From NCBI RefSeq assembly GCF_009765995.1, contig NZ_LMUI01000048.1:310001-374000 (forward strand): a DNA stretch of 64,000 nucleotides, given 5' to 3'. Below, one piece after another: positions 4,696-13,999 of the stretch. Source of the DNA: Methylocapsa sp. S129. Its GTDB lineage: Bacteria; Pseudomonadota; Alphaproteobacteria; Rhizobiales; Beijerinckiaceae. The position numbers and the translations under genes are program-made. Each line of letters begins with the position of its first letter. The stretch's first letter is position 1. A model generated the notes under the pieces. The model did not search any database. It was not told the DNA's origin and worked only from the letters and a program-made list of their open reading frames with translations.

Positions 4696-5149
4696 GAAGG
4701 AGCGGTGCAGGATTCGCGAGAGGATGTCGAGAACGGCGATGGGGATAGGGCAGGGCGCAGGAGGTTTCGCGCCTCGGGTCGATGAGGGGATTGATCACGT
4801 CGTCATCTAATAAAAACTAATACAATATCAATATGTTGCGCTACGATATCTCAGCTATATTGACTTGAATGGCGCCGATAATTCCCCTTCGCCAGAGACC
4901 AGAGAGGGCCTCACGCGCCATGCGCCCCACGAGGCTTCCCGGCGCGACGCGCGAAAAAGCCGCATCGTCGGATCGCGACCAGAGCGGCCGCCCTCGTCGA
5001 TGAGGGATGGAATTTGAACGGCTCAACGGGTCCTCAACGATCCAGGCGCATTGGGGGTTCCTATCTCCAGTCTGCACAAGTATTGTTCTTGACTGGGCGC
5101 TACGCGGATGATTACTTAAGTACCATATTCAGCAAGTTGTGAGGCCCGT
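4696..5149. other. Intergenic region at the left edge of the accessory block
   Basis: About 450 bases without a supportable gene. A patch around 4805-4860 is clearly AT-rich compared with radA. A 78-codon open frame on the minus strand (4841-5077) has no recognisable features and no good start and was left out. GAGG at 5141-5144 serves the gene that follows. This is one side of the DNA that separates radA from alr. Confidence 0.5.
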
Positions 5150-5896
5150 ATGGAGCCGACCGATCCTGGATCAGCAGCATCGCCGCGCGGAGGCGAGCCC
5201 TTCCGAGAGCCGCTTGTGCTGCGAGCTTCGGCTCTTGCTCGAAGAACCGATGCGCTTTTCAGGGCGATGTCGACGGATTTGCTTCTCCGTGAGCAATTCG
5301 TCACCGACCCGAGCCAAATTATTTCCGAATATGTCGAAGGCCGAAAGCTGCCCCCGCAGACTGCGTCCATCAGCAATCAGCTTCTTTATTCGGTGCTCTC
5401 AAATCGCCCGCTGCTTGATTGGCTCCGAGAATACGGAATCTCAAATGGCGGAGCTGTCGTGCCCCGTCAGCGGTTCATCCAGGATTTCGCTCAGGCAGTC
5501 GTAAAGCATGGGGGGGATCACGTCGTTCTCGCCCTGATCCGGGGTGCGTTGGGCGAGGCTGCGATCGTTTCGCTCGCCGGCGGAACATCGTTGTTCATCT
5601 ATCACAGCACGTTCATTGCCACAGGCTTGATTGTTAGTACGGATCACGGATCAACAGGCACCGGCACTGGCACCGGCGGTCCTACCGGCACAGGCGGCGG
5701 CGGAACACGGTTTGGCACGGATCCACACGAAACCGACCCGGGAACCGATCTTGGGACTGAAGACGGGACGGACGACTTTGTCTCGGCGCCTCTCGTGGGA
5801 ATGTATGGTTGGGAGAGAGCGTCAGTCGAAGCGCTCGTCGATTACGCCAACCAGTTGCGCGCCGCGGGCGCCCTTGACGTCGGGTCGGACGACTAG
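5150..5896 (+). CDS. Unknown protein with a leader-like N-terminus and a Gly/Thr/Asp-rich segment (candidate peptide precursor or modification target)
   Basis: Not recognised as a named family. The 248 residues divide into a mostly helical part (about 1-130) containing RAMSTDLLLREQFVTDPSQI, which is reminiscent of leader regions that read 'xxFRxxLLxDP'; a hydrophobic stretch (about 130-160); a low-complexity segment (about 164-210) with STGTGTGTGG, TGTGGGG and several GTD/ETD/GTE motifs; and a short helical tail (VEALVDYANQLRAAGA). The ATG at 5150 has GAGG five bases upstream. Its TAG stop abuts the ATG of the radical SAM gene with no gap, so the two are translationally linked. Context suggests it is the substrate or a partner of the enzymes that follow, but a structural role is equally possible. 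Confidence 0.6.
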   Translation: MEPTDPGSAASPRGGEPFREPLVLRASALARRTDALFRAMSTDLLLREQFVTDPSQIISEYVEGRKLPPQTASISNQLLYSVLSNRPLLDWLREYGISNGGAVVPRQRFIQDFAQAVVKHGGDHVVLALIRGALGEAAIVSLAGGTSLFIYHSTFIATGLIVSTDHGSTGTGTGTGGPTGTGGGGTRFGTDPHETDPGTDLGTEDGTDDFVSAPLVGMYGWERASVEALVDYANQLRAAGALDVGSDD

Positions 5897-7039
5897 ATGA
5901 TCGCCGCGCCTGCAGAAACGCGGACGAGCCCCGAACGCCAACTTCCGCCGCACGTCTATCGTGGGCACCGCACGCTGTCGATCATGCCAACGTTTGGCTG
6001 TCCGGCGGCTTGCAACGATTGCGGAACCCTGTCCAGCCCGCGAGACAGAACGAGACTGGATCTCGAGACGATCTCCGCCGCGCTACATGAAGCGAGGAAA
6101 CTTGGTTTTTATAATGTTGTCTTCACCGGCGGCGAAGCGACGATGCGTTGGGACGATCTGCTCGCCTCCATTCGGCTGGCGCGGGACTTGCGGTTTCCAG
6201 TGCGTCTCGTCACGAACGCGCATTGGGCCCGGGACCGTACTGTCGCGGCCGCCAAACTTGACCTGCTGATCGAAGCCGGGCTGTCCGAGATAAATTACAG
6301 CACCGGCGACGAACATGTGAGATTCGTGCCTTTGGAGCACGTCGTGAACGCGATTGTCGCCGCGTGCGAGCGTTCGTTTCGCGTCCATGTGATGATCGAA
6401 TTGCGGGGCCAAAGCAGCTTGGGCGAGGACGATGTTCGTCGCCATCCGCGCGTTGAGGCGCTCACCGCCGAACAGCTCAAATGGCTCGCGGTCTCGCCGA
6501 GTCCTTGGATGCCGCTTAATCACGAGACCGTGGACAATTATCCCGAGGATCTCGCGACGACCCGACGAAATCTCGCCAGTCGCGGCGGGTGTGCGAGCGT
6601 TTTGAGGGACTATACGCTTCAGGCGGATGGGCGCGTGGGCGCATGCTGCGGTCTAGGCTTGCGGCTCATTCCCGAGCTGAATGTTGCGACCGTAAAACAG
6701 CGGGACTTTCTGCGAGCGGCCATCGCGGAATCGGAGGAAGACTTCCTTAAGCTCTGGATACATTATCAGGGACCGGAACGCATTGTCGCGTGGGCGGCGT
6801 CGAAGAATCCTTCCATCGAATGGGAGGGTTTCTACGCCCACCGTTGCCAAGCCTGTCACCGGCTCTACAAGGACGACGCGATCCGGGCTGTCGTGCGCGA
6901 CCATTGGCGGGAAGTTGTCGGCGAAGTTGTCCAGTGCGCCTGGCTCGACGAAGTGTTCGTGCCCGAGGCGCTGTCGCGGTCTTGCAAGACCAAGCGCGCC
7001 GAAGCGCAAGTGGTGGGTTCGGCGGTCGGATCAGCATAA
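5897..7039 (+). CDS. Radical SAM protein with SPASM/twitch-like extra cysteines
   Basis: A 380-residue radical SAM enzyme. The cluster-binding motif is CPAACNDCG (C35-x3-C39-x2-C42), followed by FTGGEA (about 77-82), the SAM-contact GGE motif. The C-terminal half has C232, a C250-C251 pair inside LQADGRVGACCG, and C317-x2-C320 (RCQACHRLY), a layout like the auxiliary Fe-S cluster region of peptide-modifying radical SAM proteins. It starts at the base after the stop of the Gly/Thr-rich protein, which resembles RiPP precursor/maturase pairs. The specific chemistry (C-C, C-S or C-O crosslink, epimerisation) cannot be read from the sequence. Confidence 0.87.
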   Translation: MIAAPAETRTSPERQLPPHVYRGHRTLSIMPTFGCPAACNDCGTLSSPRDRTRLDLETISAALHEARKLGFYNVVFTGGEATMRWDDLLASIRLARDLRFPVRLVTNAHWARDRTVAAAKLDLLIEAGLSEINYSTGDEHVRFVPLEHVVNAIVAACERSFRVHVMIELRGQSSLGEDDVRRHPRVEALTAEQLKWLAVSPSPWMPLNHETVDNYPEDLATTRRNLASRGGCASVLRDYTLQADGRVGACCGLGLRLIPELNVATVKQRDFLRAAIAESEEDFLKLWIHYQGPERIVAWAASKNPSIEWEGFYAHRCQACHRLYKDDAIRAVVRDHWREVVGEVVQCAWLDEVFVPEALSRSCKTKRAEAQVVGSAVGSA

Positions 7040-7078
7040 GGCGGCGCAGCGGAAGACCGAAGCATAGGATGCGACGAA

Positions 7079-8503
7079 TTGGCGGATTCTCAACCAGCGA
7101 TAAGCGATGAGGGTTACGTCAGCAGCGCCGAGCTGGCTGACGCCGCCGCGCAATATGTTGCGATGCTTGAGAGCGAATACGGAGCGGAAAAACGCGAATC
7201 GCTCGTGACCGCTGCCGAACTCCGCGTACGGATCGCCCAGGAGAGCAAAGGCCTCAAGGCGGCGCGCGCGCGATTGGCGACGCTTCTGCTGCGGGGGACG
7301 GAGGCGCGAGACGAATGCGATATATTGCGGCGAGAGAATGCCTTGGATGGGTCCGTGCTCCTCGAACTCGATCAGCGCACTTCGTCTTATCTTAGGGTTG
7401 GACAACTGGATCTCGCCTCGCGCTCCGCTCGGTTGCAGACCGATCTTATCTATGGCGCGAAGCGCTTCGAACCCCAGGCCGGCCGGGCGATAGCGCCCCG
7501 GCGCATCAGAATCACGACGCCGGTTCTGACAATACAGAAGCTGCGGCACGATATAGAGCAATTCGAATACCTTCGGGAACGCAACATCCTAGGGGACGAG
7601 TTCTGCGAAGTCATCAATCATTATGAGGATCTCATCAGACGTCTGACGCCGCTTGGCCCCGAAGCTCGCATGCCATTAAGTCCGGCAGACGAAGGGAAGC
7701 TGGGAGACAAATATAGTCGCCTCATTCATGTGCGCGAGAGTCCTGAATTGCCGGATGTTCTCTCGGGAAGCTGGAACCGGGAAGCGGTCGAGTCGGAATA
7801 TTTGAACGATAGCAACGGCGTGGCGGTGGTGGACGATTTCCTGACGGCGGAGGCGCTCGAAAGCGTTCGCAGCTTTTGCCTGGAGTCGACCATCTGGTTT
7901 ACCAATCGCTATGCGCACGGACGTTTTGGCGCGTTCTTCCGTGAGGGATTCAACAGCCCTTTATTGCTTCAGATAGCGCGGGAAGTGGCCAAAGCTTTCC
8001 CCGCGATAGTCGGAGATCGAACGCTCCGGCAGCTTTGGGGTTTTAAATACGGCGAGCAATTGCCAGGCGAGACCGTCCATGCCGACTTCGCGGCCGTGAA
8101 CCTGAATATCTGGATTACTCCGGAAAGCGCCAATCGGGACGCCGCGACTGGCGGCCTCTATATCTACGATTGTAAAGCGCCCCTGACTTGGAGCTTTGAC
8201 GAATACAACAGGCGCCCCGAGCTGATACGCGGCTTCTTGAGACATAGGGGCGCTCGTTCGCGCTACATCCCCTACAAGGTCAATCGCGCGATCTTCTTTA
8301 ACTCAAATCTTTTCCACGGAACCGCTCCGCTGGATTTTCGCGCGGGATACGAGAACCGCCGTATCAATGTTTCCTTCCTTTACGGCGATCGGATGGAGGA
8401 AGCGGACGATTTAGGTTCGCCGCGGCCAAGCGCCGCGGCGCAGTCATCGGCCTCGCGGGTCGGCTGGCGCTCAGCAAGCTTTGCGCGGTTTCGCACTGGG
8501 TAA
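7079..8503 (+). CDS. 2-oxoglutarate/Fe(II)-dependent oxygenase with a long N-terminal domain
   Basis: 474 residues. The C-terminal half has the facial triad of the 2OG-Fe(II) oxygenase fold: HxD at H334-D336 (VHADFAAVNLNIWITP), the distal His H413 (NLFHGTAPLDF) and Arg about 427-428 (ENRRINVSFLY) for 2OG. The N-terminal 240 residues are helical and contain KLRHDIEQFEYLRER, a segment seen in related oxygenases with repeat-type N-termini; it might bind a protein partner. The start is taken as TTG at 7079 with AGGA nine bases upstream; no ATG is available near the beginning. It follows the radical SAM gene by 39 bases, so probably the same transcript. Likely a hydroxylase of a peptide/protein or small-molecule substrate. 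Confidence 0.78.
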   Translation: MADSQPAISDEGYVSSAELADAAAQYVAMLESEYGAEKRESLVTAAELRVRIAQESKGLKAARARLATLLLRGTEARDECDILRRENALDGSVLLELDQRTSSYLRVGQLDLASRSARLQTDLIYGAKRFEPQAGRAIAPRRIRITTPVLTIQKLRHDIEQFEYLRERNILGDEFCEVINHYEDLIRRLTPLGPEARMPLSPADEGKLGDKYSRLIHVRESPELPDVLSGSWNREAVESEYLNDSNGVAVVDDFLTAEALESVRSFCLESTIWFTNRYAHGRFGAFFREGFNSPLLLQIAREVAKAFPAIVGDRTLRQLWGFKYGEQLPGETVHADFAAVNLNIWITPESANRDAATGGLYIYDCKAPLTWSFDEYNRRPELIRGFLRHRGARSRYIPYKVNRAIFFNSNLFHGTAPLDFRAGYENRRINVSFLYGDRMEEADDLGSPRPSAAAQSSASRVGWRSASFARFRTG

Positions 8504-8631
8504 ACCAAATCGCGACGGCTCAAAGCTGTCTGGGCCATTGCAAGGCAACGAAGACGCATATCTCGAAACTCGTCGTCATCGAACGGACGCCATGCGATTT
8601 GGCGCCGCGATAGTGGGTCTGGAGGCGGCGC

Positions 8632-9300
8632 GTGGGTTCTCAATTCGGCCAGGATGTGTTCGTGCTTGATCTGCTCGGTTGGAAGCGCCGCGGATTCTTT
8701 TTGGATTCCGGCGCTGCGGACGGCCTGCGATCGAGCAACACATTGATGATGGAGCAAGAGTTCGGATGGCGAGGAATCTGCATCGAGCCGAATTCGGAAA
8801 TGTTCGCCTCGCTTCTGAAGAATCGCAGATGTAAGTGCCTCAACTTATGTCTCTTCGACCGGGAAGGCGACATCGAGTTCCTCGAGAATGGCAGGATGCT
8901 GGGAGGAATCCTTGAATCCTATGATCCTCAACATCTTCAATACGTGTGCGAAATATGTACATTGCAAGAGAACGACGACGGTTCGTTTGTCACGGTTCGT
9001 AAGAGGTGTCGGCTACCGGAATCTGTCCTCCGGGAGTGTGGCGCTCCGAGCGTCATTGACTATTGGAGTCTGGATACGGAGGGCTCCGAGTTGGCGATTC
9101 TCGAGAGCTTTCCCTTCGAGACATATTCGTGTCGAGTGATAACCGTCGAACACAACCGGAAACCTGTCCGGCAGCGGATCAGAGATTGTCTCTTCGAGCA
9201 TGGTTACCGACATGTCGCGGCTTTCGGGATCGACGATTGCTACGCGAAAGGCGTGACCAACCAAATCGCGGGGTCGCGAAGCGCAGTCTGGCGGCGATGA
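8632..9300 (+). CDS. FkbM family methyltransferase
   Basis: A 222-residue SAM-dependent methyltransferase of the FkbM type. SQFGQDVFVLDLL is the usual opening of this family, GFFLDSGAADG (about 21-31) is the SAM-binding loop, CIEPNSEMF (50-58) holds the acidic residue for the ribose, and DYWSLDTEGSEL is the conserved DxEGxE segment. FkbM enzymes O-methylate hydroxyl groups, which fits with the oxygenase just upstream. The GTG start at 8632 is supported by GGAGG at 8621-8625. It lies 128 bases after the oxygenase and is the last gene of the cassette. The codon and base use look slightly less GC-rich than the chromosomal genes on either side. Confidence 0.82.
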   Translation: MGSQFGQDVFVLDLLGWKRRGFFLDSGAADGLRSSNTLMMEQEFGWRGICIEPNSEMFASLLKNRRCKCLNLCLFDREGDIEFLENGRMLGGILESYDPQHLQYVCEICTLQENDDGSFVTVRKRCRLPESVLRECGAPSVIDYWSLDTEGSELAILESFPFETYSCRVITVEHNRKPVRQRIRDCLFEHGYRHVAAFGIDDCYAKGVTNQIAGSRSAVWRR

Positions 9301-9483
9301 AGCCGGCGGCCGATCCGCGCCGCCCATGAAACGGAACCGAAGCAATGACGGTGGCGGGCGCGAGATTGCAGCGTGGGCGCAATCGGGCCGCAGCCGCTTG
9401 CGCTACGCCGCCGCCCTCCGGCATAACAGCCTGACTGCTTCACGCGCCCGCTCGCCGGGCGGATCGAAAGGCCGAGCCCTTCC

Positions 9484-10023
9484 ATGACCTCCGAAAACGA
9501 TCTCAAGGCCGCCATCCGTTCGATCCCCGACTATCCCAAGGCCGGGATCATGTTCCGCGACATCACCACGCTGCTCGGCGATGCGCGCGCGTTCCGCCAA
9601 GCGGTCGATCAATTGGTGCAGCCATGGGCGGGGAGCAAAATCGACAAGGTCGCGGGCATCGAGGCGCGCGGTTTCATCCTGGGCGGCGCCGTGGCGCATC
9701 AAGTCTCCGCTGGTTTCATTCCGATCCGCAAGAAGGGCAAGCTGCCCTTCAAGCGCGTCAGCGTCGGCTATTCCCTCGAATATGGCGACGACGAAATGGA
9801 GATGCACGAGGATGCGCTGGCGCGCGGCGAACGGGTGATCCTCGTCGACGACCTCGTCGCCACCGGCGGTACGGCGGAGGCCGCCGTCAAGCTGCTCCGG
9901 CAGATGGGCGGCGACGTGCTCGCCGCCTGCTTCGTCATCGATCTTCCCGACCTTGGCGGCGCCGATAAATTGCGCAAGCTCGGCGTGCCGGTACGCACGC
10001 TCGTGTCTTTCCCCGGACACTGA
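9484..10023 (+). CDS. apt: Adenine phosphoribosyltransferase
   Basis: Purine salvage enzyme converting adenine plus PRPP to AMP. The 179-residue product starts with [20 protein letters not shown], has [14 protein letters not shown], and the PRPP-binding motif [17 protein letters not shown] near residues 118-135. Length and layout are normal. It lies 183 bases after the FkbM gene; that gap has no gene and the two are not obviously co-transcribed. Confidence 0.96.
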
Positions 10024-12654: not shown

Positions 12655-12915
12655 TCACGCCGATAAAGCGCTTCGTTCGTTGAGATGACGGGTTGCGAAG
12701 GCGGCTGTGCCGTTCGCGGCGTCGTCTTGAGTGATGGCGCATATCTCGGCAAGCGCCGCCATCACGCCGGGCATTTCAAGCCAAGCGACGATGTCGGCGT
12801 AACCCTCCTTCATCAGGGCCCTCTGGATCGACGCAAAGTCCTCATAATAGCCCGAGCGCGCCAATTCGTAAGCGCGCCGTCCGACATAGGCCAAACGTTC
12901 ATCGTTTTTGGGCAT
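12655..12915 (-). CDS. Small conserved protein, paralogue of the one at 13601-13822
   Basis: 86 residues starting MPKNDERLAYVGRRAYELAR. It aligns along most of its length with the protein at 13601-13822: both read RLAYVxxRAYxLARxGxxEDFAxI, EGxxxxVxWLExP and LxEICxI. The start at 12915 has AGGAGG about six bases before it. The family is unknown to me; the small helical proteins may be regulatory. It is divergent from the CsbD gene 150 bases away. The C-terminal tail (after about residue 65) is not shared with the paralogue. Confidence 0.75.
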   Translation of the reverse strand: MPKNDERLAYVGRRAYELARSGYYEDFASIQRALMKEGYADIVAWLEMPGVMAALAEICAITQDDAANGTAAFATRHLNERSALSA

Positions 12916-13067
12916 GGCGGCCTCCTCCCTTTGCGCGAACCATAGCAAATCTGTCTGTGGCGCCAAATCAACACTTCGGGGTTGGGCGTGATATCCGAGG
13001 AGGGATGGAACCCATCGCATTTTGGATCATTGAACGCGCGTCGATGACCCCAAAGGAGGCGACGACG

Positions 13068-13600: not shown

Positions 13601-13822
13601 TCACTGAGTGTTGGCCGGCTTGCGCCAAGGACGCCGATTGACGATGCAAATCTCATCGAGCGTGTTGCGAAGGGCCGGCCGCTCGAGCCAATGGACTTCC
13701 TCGCCGAAACCTTCCGCAGCTATCTCTTGCTCGATCGCCGCGAAATCCTCAAAGCTTCCCGTCCGCGCGAGCGCGTAAGCGCGTTCGGCGACATAGGCCA
13801 GCCGATTTTCGGTCTGGGTCAT
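13601..13822 (-). CDS. Small conserved protein, paralogue of the one at 12655-12915
   Basis: 73 residues starting MTQTENRLAYVAERAYALAR, with the shared core (EDFAAIEQEIAAEGFGEEV, HWLERPALRNTLDEICIV) of the protein at 12655-12915. AAAGGAGG lies about five bases before the ATG at 13822, the same strong ribosome site type as its paralogue and as CsbD. Function unknown. It sits just past the CsbD terminator on the opposite strand. Confidence 0.75.
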   Translation of the reverse strand: MTQTENRLAYVAERAYALARTGSFEDFAAIEQEIAAEGFGEEVHWLERPALRNTLDEICIVNRRPWRKPANTQ

Positions 13823-13999
13823 TCGGGCCTCCTTTCCACGCCCGCCAGCCTCGCCATGATCTTGCATCAGTTCGGCGTTCGTATGACCAAGTTAGGACCG
13901 GCGCCGGAAGACATTGTGAATCGACGCGGGGGCGACGACCCGCCGTGCGACGGCGTGCGGCGGCTTGGCGACCACGCGCTTTTAGTCCTGCGTCTCGCT

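Follow-up and report, generated by a model that had tools for sequence, protein, structure and literature searches.

The question raised by this locus is what four closely spaced genes of Methylocapsa sp. S129, encoding a protein with a helical leader-like region, a radical S-adenosylmethionine (SAM) enzyme, an oxygenase-like enzyme and a methyltransferase, accomplish together. The cassette lies on the forward strand of the window, i.e., the whole 64,000-nt stretch that was analyzed (contig NZ_LMUI01000048.1, positions 310,001 to 374,000), and comprises gene 1 (5150–5896, 248 amino acids (aa)), encoding a putative precursor or substrate protein with a leader, a variable core and a conserved C-terminal stretch; gene 2 (5897–7039, 380 aa), encoding a YydG/EpeE-like radical SAM enzyme according to profile and Cys alignment; gene 3 (7079–8503, 474 aa, predicted TTG start), encoding a 2-oxoglutarate (2OG)/Fe(II)-oxygenase-like enzyme; and gene 4 (8632–9300, 222 aa, predicted GTG start), encoding an FkbM-family methyltransferase according to Pfam. 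The gaps between consecutive genes were 0, 39, and 128 nt, and all four open reading frames (ORFs) were present as described in an earlier note on this DNA. The best explanation, to which we assign a probability of about 0.68 as judged from sequence, is a leader-guided protein-modification system with the logic of ribosomally synthesized and post-translationally modified peptides (RiPPs), in which gene 1 would encode the substrate and genes 2–4 the modifying enzymes.

A contig scan with a two-row enzyme profile revealed 31 loci, among which 16 (L009–L024) contained close relatives of gene 2 (39–63% identity) and spanned Pseudomonadota, Actinomycetota, Bacteroidota, and Planctomycetota, and 15 (L025–L039) contained remote relatives (24–38%); the same scan with the single enzyme sequence and a search of plasmids with gene 1 returned no match. 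Together with the window and locus L041, the 16 loci formed a set of 18 close loci, in all of which a leader-type ORF, picked by eye from the ORF lists, was located directly before the radical SAM gene (from a 17-nt overlap to a 51-nt gap), including four loci (L015, L017, L020, and L024) whose precursor was not shown by plain blastp with gene 1 at 1e-4. A leader profile of 14 rows matched 19 of the 20 enzyme-bearing genomes, 12 of which had supplied rows; seven of the remaining eight were matched, one of them (G826) through a precursor that duplicates one of the supplied rows. The profile gave no match in G1008, yet a similar ORF was present there. Of the 21 matches, 20 were no farther than about 1.3 kb from the enzyme gene. 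Thus, gene 1 regularly accompanies the radical SAM gene, which supports the proposal of the earlier note that it encodes a leader-bearing substrate of the adjoining enzymes. The four-gene neighborhood was also sought elsewhere, as that note had advised, and the same order recurred in five Oxalobacteraceae/Burkholderiaceae loci (blastp identities of 46–63%, for gene 1 over 149 residues only), but five other relatives, considered below, combined genes 1 and 3 with no epimerase gene adjoining; in a sixth locus of the Oxalobacteraceae/Burkholderiaceae kind, L018, no FkbM gene was detected by tblastn.

The gene 1 protein had no Pfam match up to E = 1 and a single, meaningless NCBIfam match (E = 0.35). 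Its leader domain (aa 26–135; 5225–5554) is helical and conserved across phyla, with F50, P54, N76, and L83 invariant in 18 rows, and the helices modeled by AlphaFold2 within this region (block-mean pLDDT (predicted local distance difference test) 79–90) bear out the leader-like helix noticed earlier. Residues 137–223 were modeled with low confidence, as was a helix drawn at 216–238 (block means 39–65), which corresponds to the conserved C-terminal stretch (aa 216–238; 5795–5863). Between the leader and this stretch lie the hydrophobic segment LFIYHSTFIATGLIVSTDH (5591–5647), which ends in TDH and is the proposed epimerase target, and a Gly-Thr-rich core (5648–5776) with TGTGTG, GGPT, and four GT(D/E) motifs, the proposed target of the oxygenase and methyltransferase. 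There is no Cys in the core. Matches of the precursor profile to the designed alphaRep and similar helical proteins in the PDB, and NCBIfam matches of repeat-rich precursors to FliH, TonB, and adhesin models, were judged compositional. An alternation of L- and D-residues, as in the polytheonamide-like beta-helix, was likewise rejected for the window core (parity p = 0.43, lag-2 p = 0.41; core limits in these tests were set by eye), and parity was not significant in the Roseiarcus fermentans core (p = 0.61). Parity exceeded 2000 shuffles in the Thermus core and, trivially, in even-period repeats (Duganella type, L021); the Eleftheria core was significant for parity only (p = 0.0055), the Amycolatopsis core for lag-2 only (p = 0.006), and the other cores for neither. 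A start resembling a Tat (twin-arginine translocation) signal was seen by eye in the precursors of the Thermus, Eleftheria, G831, and G1035 relatives, and not in the window; the Tat model gave 13.0 bits for Thermus (cut-off 16.7) and no match for Eleftheria.

The product of gene 2 matched the Pfam Radical_SAM model with 39.9 bits (cut-off 29.5), and the CxxxCxxC motif (C35/C39/C42), together with C232, C250-C251, C317, and C320, was invariant in the 18 rows of its alignment. When the 18-row profile was compared with the PDB, YydG (8ai1) came first (E = 1.5e-16, 63.5 bits, 304 profile positions), with non-YydG entries at E-values of at least 1.1e-5. The invariant CC pair (C250-C251 in the window) and the CxxC motif aligned with Cys residues of YydG; in YydG numbering, obtained through an inferred construct offset of 25, the pair is C222/C223, and Cys223 is the proposed hydrogen donor of YydG (PMC8326336). 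C251 is proposed as the conserved candidate donor cysteine. The enzyme keeps additional Cys residues, as does the two-cluster YydG; the PoyD type is characterized by one FeS cluster and a C-terminal RiPP recognition element. The gene product is taken as a homologue, though not an equivalog, of EpeE/YydG. The comparison with SPASM enzymes made earlier was not borne out, since no SPASM model occurred among the Pfam matches of gene 2 up to E = 1, and of the suggested "crosslink or epimerise" only the second part agrees with the best match, the enzyme being epimerase-like and not a recognized SPASM cross-linker. Another radical chemistry, such as thioether or C–C cross-linking or decarboxylation, is rather unlikely, although the YydG match is remote at 63.5 bits, NCBIfam gave weaker matches to PqqE, the sactipeptide maturase StsB, and others, and Cys is present in some family cores (L023, L019, and L041). 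It is opposed by the agreement of NCBIfam and the PDB profile on YydG as the best match, by the aligned CC pair and CxxC motif, and by the lack of both a SPASM match in Pfam and of Cys in the window core.

Epimerization by gene 2 would be followed by tailoring through genes 3 and 4. In gene 3, whose conserved part covers about aa 150–437, the residues H334-x-D336, H413, and R428 were invariant in the nine rows of alignment A8, so that the HxD...H...R motif reported earlier was recovered, as were the CxxxCxxC motif of gene 2 and the FkbM assignment of gene 4 (PF05050, 45.2 bits, cut-off 22.7; NCBIfam TIGR01444, 30.4 bits, under the cut-off of 37.7). The Duganella homologues lack roughly the first 140–150 residues of gene 3; in actinobacterial homologues, about residues 97–150 were matched. 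A Duganella homologue matched DUF6445 with 18.6 bits, under the cut-off of 24, and a match to phrog_1644, labeled minor coat protein, was obtained at E = 9e-6. The predicted O-methylation stood as far as the methyltransferase is concerned, but an oxygen target is not required: the FkbM enzyme EreM methylates backbone nitrogen and was called the sole FkbM enzyme characterized in a RiPP cluster at that time (PMC9259500, PMC11285071). Relatives of gene 3 lacking the C-terminal tail described next were seen among hydantoinase and ABC (ATP-binding cassette)-transporter genes in Aminobacter pSR7 (L100, 4518–5861) and Thioclava p2 (L101, 4359–5585).

The two tailoring enzymes have a C-terminal tail in common. 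Gene 3 ends in WRSASFARFRTG (8465–8500), and gene 4 ends in WRR (9289–9297), a shortened form. WRS followed by basic residues was found at the C-terminus of 12 of 12 oxygenases and 8 of 9 FkbM enzymes, the window FkbM enzyme being the exception. No such tail was present in four non-cassette oxygenase-like proteins (Aminobacter, one of two from Thioclava, and two of G981) or in the two FkbM relatives looked at among six non-cassette matches. A scan of five genomes with a WRS DNA pattern gave 17 places compared with 6 for the reversed control, using a strict pattern that misses some cassette tails (both of L010 and one of L009); five of the places were cassette tails, and none of the other 12 ends a long frame, the nearest lying 10 codons (54 open upstream) and 17 codons (87) before a stop. 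Since two unrelated enzyme families share one tail only in the cassette setting, it is possible that the tail is a docking tag on both enzymes.

The gene content of the related loci was divided between the epimerase and the tailoring pair. Homologues of gene 3 were located beside the enzyme in six loci, and homologues of gene 4 in five of these six, whereas five cassettes (L086, L095, L096, L097, and L099) contained gene 3 and a GT-repeat protein with no adjoining YydG-like gene, three of them also with gene 4. Gene types 1, 3, and 4 were found together in two actinobacterial loci and on one plasmid. L086, L095, and L097 gave no tblastn match to gene 2; in L096, the oxygenase is followed at 0.7 kb by a distantly related radical SAM gene (28%, E = 4e-7) that resembles the SPASM type by eye; and in L099, no radical SAM gene was annotated beside the cassette, and the plasmid was not among the P0002 matches. 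The only leader match away from an enzyme gene belonged to the Microbispora genome G554, where a GT-repeat precursor is followed by homologues of gene 3 (46%) and gene 4 (52%). This locus (L086, 4090–7113) is a second, epimerase-less cassette, the pair of leader and epimerase being located elsewhere in the same genome. Locus L099, on a Cupriavidus oxalaticus plasmid typed as conjugative (4982–9824), encodes a GTEMSPG-repeat protein, an oxygenase, and an FkbM enzyme, both enzymes with WRS tails, as well as a second 2OG oxygenase and an aldo/keto reductase. A search with the oxygenase profile of 345 genomes of the Microbispora order gave matches in six, namely, G554, G1050 (with FkbM), G1056 and G1001 (no FkbM by tblastn), and, more weakly, G981 and G939; of the last two, G981 was inspected, and no cassette was seen.

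This division was reflected in the precursors. With a threshold chosen after the data had been seen, at least four GT dipeptides in some 40-aa window were present in 12 of 12 precursors beside an oxygenase and in none of 19 others (lowest count 5, highest count 3, respectively); when near-duplicates (L009, L011–L013, L018, L096, L097, and L059b) were dropped, the ratio was 5/5 to 0/18 (Fisher p = 3e-5). The 31 precursors did not include L052 (identical to L011), L058 (near-identical to L020), L062, L066–L068, and the remote L025–L039. The TDH segment, a motif also chosen in hindsight, was found in all nine precursors belonging to the enzyme's own clade, in none of five epimerase-less cassettes, and in 1 of 17 precursors with other partners. 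Thus, GT density tracks the oxygenase and TDH tracks the enzyme's own clade, which suggests two modules, in which the epimerase would act on the hydrophobic segment ending in TDH and the oxygenase and methyltransferase on the GT(D/E) repeats. We infer that the enzymes would be recruited to gene 1 through the helical leader of ~110 residues, perhaps with the aid of the conserved C-terminal stretch; gene 2 would remove an alpha-hydrogen and C251 would return one on the opposite face, giving D-residues in the V/I segment ending in TDH; the 2OG oxygenase would then hydroxylate, and the FkbM enzyme methylate, residues in the Gly-Thr-(Asp/Glu) core, with the shared WRS tail docking both, after which export or use of the product is conjectural. 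A bolder version, doubtful at present, is that the tailoring enzymes, and not the substrate alone, bear the recognition signal, the WRS tail docking both on a common substrate, so that GT arrays would become long hydroxylated and methylated chains; the EpeE-type epimerase would be an optional addition directed at a different segment of the same protein.

The repeats themselves are conserved in the Duganella-type arrays. In six such arrays, bounded by the first and last motif (18, 22, 22, 21, 23, and 26 tetrads in L009–L013 and L018), all 132 in-register tetrads begin with GT, followed by D, N, E, Q, or H in the third position and any residue in the fourth. Pairwise differences in the first three residues were 0.06–0.17, 0.00, and 0.43–0.67 at codon positions 1, 2, and 3, respectively; the repeats are thus kept at the protein level despite synonymous change. 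Variation at third codon positions, with none at positions 1 and 2 of the Gly and Thr codons, led to the rejection of fresh DNA slippage as their origin; the array of L021 is nearly identical at the DNA level, and slippage is possible there. It should be noted that low-complexity Gly/Thr/Asp arrays are common in surface proteins, and the GT-rich zone might be a flexible linker or metal-binding stalk, with the oxygenase and FkbM enzyme acting elsewhere, for instance on the leader, on the C-terminal stretch, or on a glycan attached to the protein. The Pro-rich, Ser-rich, or hydrophobic cores of other family members would fit this explanation, which is nevertheless unlikely in view of the conservation of G-T-(D/N/E/Q/H)-x at the protein level and of the division of GT density by oxygenase (12/12 against 0/19), epimerase-less loci included.

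Another explanation is an ordinary proteusin or epipeptide cluster that seems new because the models miss its leader. The epipeptide system EpeX/EpeE (YydF/YydG) of Bacillus subtilis resembles the cassette in its homologous radical SAM enzyme with aligned CC pair and CxxC motif and in the hydrophobic V/I-containing target segment proposed for gene 1, but gene 1 has 248 aa and a leader of ~110 aa, whereas the epipeptide precursor has a 32-aa leader (PMC8326336). The EpeP protease and EpeAB permease, which belong to the epeXEPAB cluster, were not seen by eye adjoining the cassette, to which 2OG and FkbM enzymes are added. The proteusins pythonamide (EreA, EreD, EreI, and EreM) and polytheonamide (PoyA, PoyD, PoyI, and PoyE) resemble the cassette, as interpreted here, in having a large leader and an epimerase, a 2OG oxygenase, and a methyltransferase. 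In pythonamide, the epimerase EreD is combined with the 2OG enzyme EreI and the FkbM enzyme EreM (PMC9505594), EreM needs EreI for five of six sites, and the EreA core has four GGP(T/S) motifs (PMC11285071, PMC9505594, PMC9259500), compared with one GGPT in the window core. The cassette differs from the proteusins in its epimerase, which is probably of the EpeE and not the PoyD kind, in a leader that is not NHLP at the cut-off, in having GT(D/E) repeats as its core with a conserved C-terminal stretch after them, and in the WRS tails; a B12 radical SAM C-methyltransferase was not seen beside it. The similarity of the enzyme trio to that of pythonamide speaks for an ordinary proteusin, as do matches to the NHLP clan that fell below threshold in three relatives (NF038399, 23.7 and 24.3 bits, cut-off 40; TIGR04509, 17.7–22.1 bits, cut-off 34), a TIGR04509 match at E = 0.006 in 1 of 18 family precursors, and a Thermus relative with an Asn-alternating core and a methyltransferase of PF05175, which is given as the PoyE family. 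The gene 1 protein of the window had no NHLP match, and we regard this explanation as improbable. A close likeness is also seen to R. fermentans (L004/L023) and a Methylococcaceae metagenome-assembled genome (MAG; L021), with the same leader family, radical SAM enzyme, and repeat cores, and with PF13640-type 2OG genes nearby (in L021, two above the cut-off right after the pair; in R. fermentans, one below the cut-off on the opposite strand, at a distance of about 2 kb); they differ in having cores of the CPPPPP and PGPGPD types and no tblastn match to gene 3 or 4. The combination that the earlier note could not place among RiPP classes has a precedent for its chemistry in pythonamide, but the leader, epimerase family, repeat core, C-terminal stretch, and tails differ; a search of the open literature, with partial coverage and narrow terms, revealed no description of the gene family or the combination.

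The family is distributed sporadically. Members were found in 2 of 397 genomes of the order, the window genome included, in 4 of 11 genomes of the genus at E = 1e-3 (only two strong), and in 7 of 294, 7 of 297, and 1 of 298 genomes in samples around other members; gene 1 was found, among 149 genomes of the family, only in its own genome and in G066 of the same genus. The window genome and R. fermentans are congeners. The R. fermentans enzyme was 46% identical to gene 2, and the protein preceding it has ends like those of gene 1 and a Cys-Pro array in the middle. In the enzyme tree, in which long branches were flagged, the window sequence grouped with the Duganella clade (95/88) and that of R. 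fermentans with the Methylococcaceae MAG (99/96); therefore, the two congeners carry different lineages. The cassette was probably acquired by transfer, because the GC content at third codon positions (GC3) was 0.63–0.69 in it and 0.80–0.83 in the adjoining genes, which we take to be radA, purF, and apt. Promoter and terminator scans gave nothing beyond the shuffle range. Chance proximity of four unrelated genes, to which the gaps of 39 and 128 nt and a low GC3, suggestive of transferred DNA that can gather odd genes, might point, is extremely improbable, because the gene order is repeated in five loci from a different proteobacterial class and types 1, 3, and 4 occur jointly in the two actinobacterial loci and on the plasmid.

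A number of observations weigh against a leader-guided modification system as outlined here, beginning with the choice of the GT threshold and TDH motif in hindsight. No product, mass shift, or structure was found for any family member, and no protease or exporter was seen in or beside the cassette when the ORF lists were read by eye, as the earlier note had remarked of the cassette. For gene 2, C232 is two columns away from the corresponding YydG Cys, at the equivalent of YydG position 210, 17 of 18 rows have Thr and the window has Asp, and the YydG model TIGR04078, still the best NCBIfam match, gave 41.7 bits against a cut-off of 300. Gene 3 matched nothing in Pfam or NCBIfam up to E = 1, the Pfam oxygenase families included, its homologue in L012 has Asn in place of the first metal His (alignment A5, seven rows), and hhalign of its profile with one L021 2OG enzyme, a weak test with a single sequence, gave no match. 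The L099 protein has GT repeats and the C-terminal stretch with no recognizable leader, and the window repeat is short and degenerate, with only four GT(D/E) units plus TGTGTG and GGPT. Many rows are near relatives, and since L086/L097 and L095/L096 are near-duplicates, the epimerase-less cassettes represent about three lineages. The absence of an oxygenase was seen only in part in L019 and L024, whose contigs end less than 600 bases past the enzyme, and in L056 and L059, which are 4-kb loci; the genomes of the latter two were not among the matches of the oxygenase profile search, and both were outside the tblastn survey of close loci.

If the proposed system is real, it would join two epimerase worlds that have been described as distinct, an epipeptide-type enzyme on the one hand and a proteusin-like long leader with its tailoring set on the other, and natural examples lacking each module would help to map which enzyme acts where. 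It would also provide a small, transferable tag by which modifying enzymes could be brought to a protein of choice, and the repeat arrays would supply a ready-made scaffold on which repetitive modified proteins could be built.

Several other loci were recorded. On the 14-kb Thermus aquaticus plasmid pTA14 (L064, 2599–7270), a precursor in which almost every other core residue is Asn is accompanied by a YydG-like radical SAM gene, an SdpI-family protein, a PF05175 methyltransferase, and a serine hydrolase; the locus resembles a system of the polytheonamide type that may include immunity. On Lactococcus lactis plasmid p001F (L066, 3463–8473), a small protein, a YydG-like radical SAM gene, and a C1 peptidase were found, and the opposite strand carries the ATP-binding gene of an ABC transporter. 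A Phycisphaerales MAG (L019, 7103–9930) contained a B12-type radical SAM gene followed by two different precursor-like ORFs, the first with a sub-threshold NHLP-clan match. Among the remote radical SAM relatives, those of Fibrobacter (L026, L029, and L030) follow proteins that have Pro/Ile repeats in the middle and end in lysine-rich sequence, and the archaeal MAGs L027, L028, and L031 and Thermoproteales L025 have precursor-like ORFs before the radical SAM gene, several with Val/Ala-rich ends; in L028 and L031, a long gene follows, and that of L028 encodes an ABC exporter according to Pfam. In the window itself, two small ORFs on the reverse strand (12655–13020 and 13601–13867), 0.6 kb apart, appeared paralogous by eye, with the common pattern RLAYV..RAY.LAR.G..EDFA.I.

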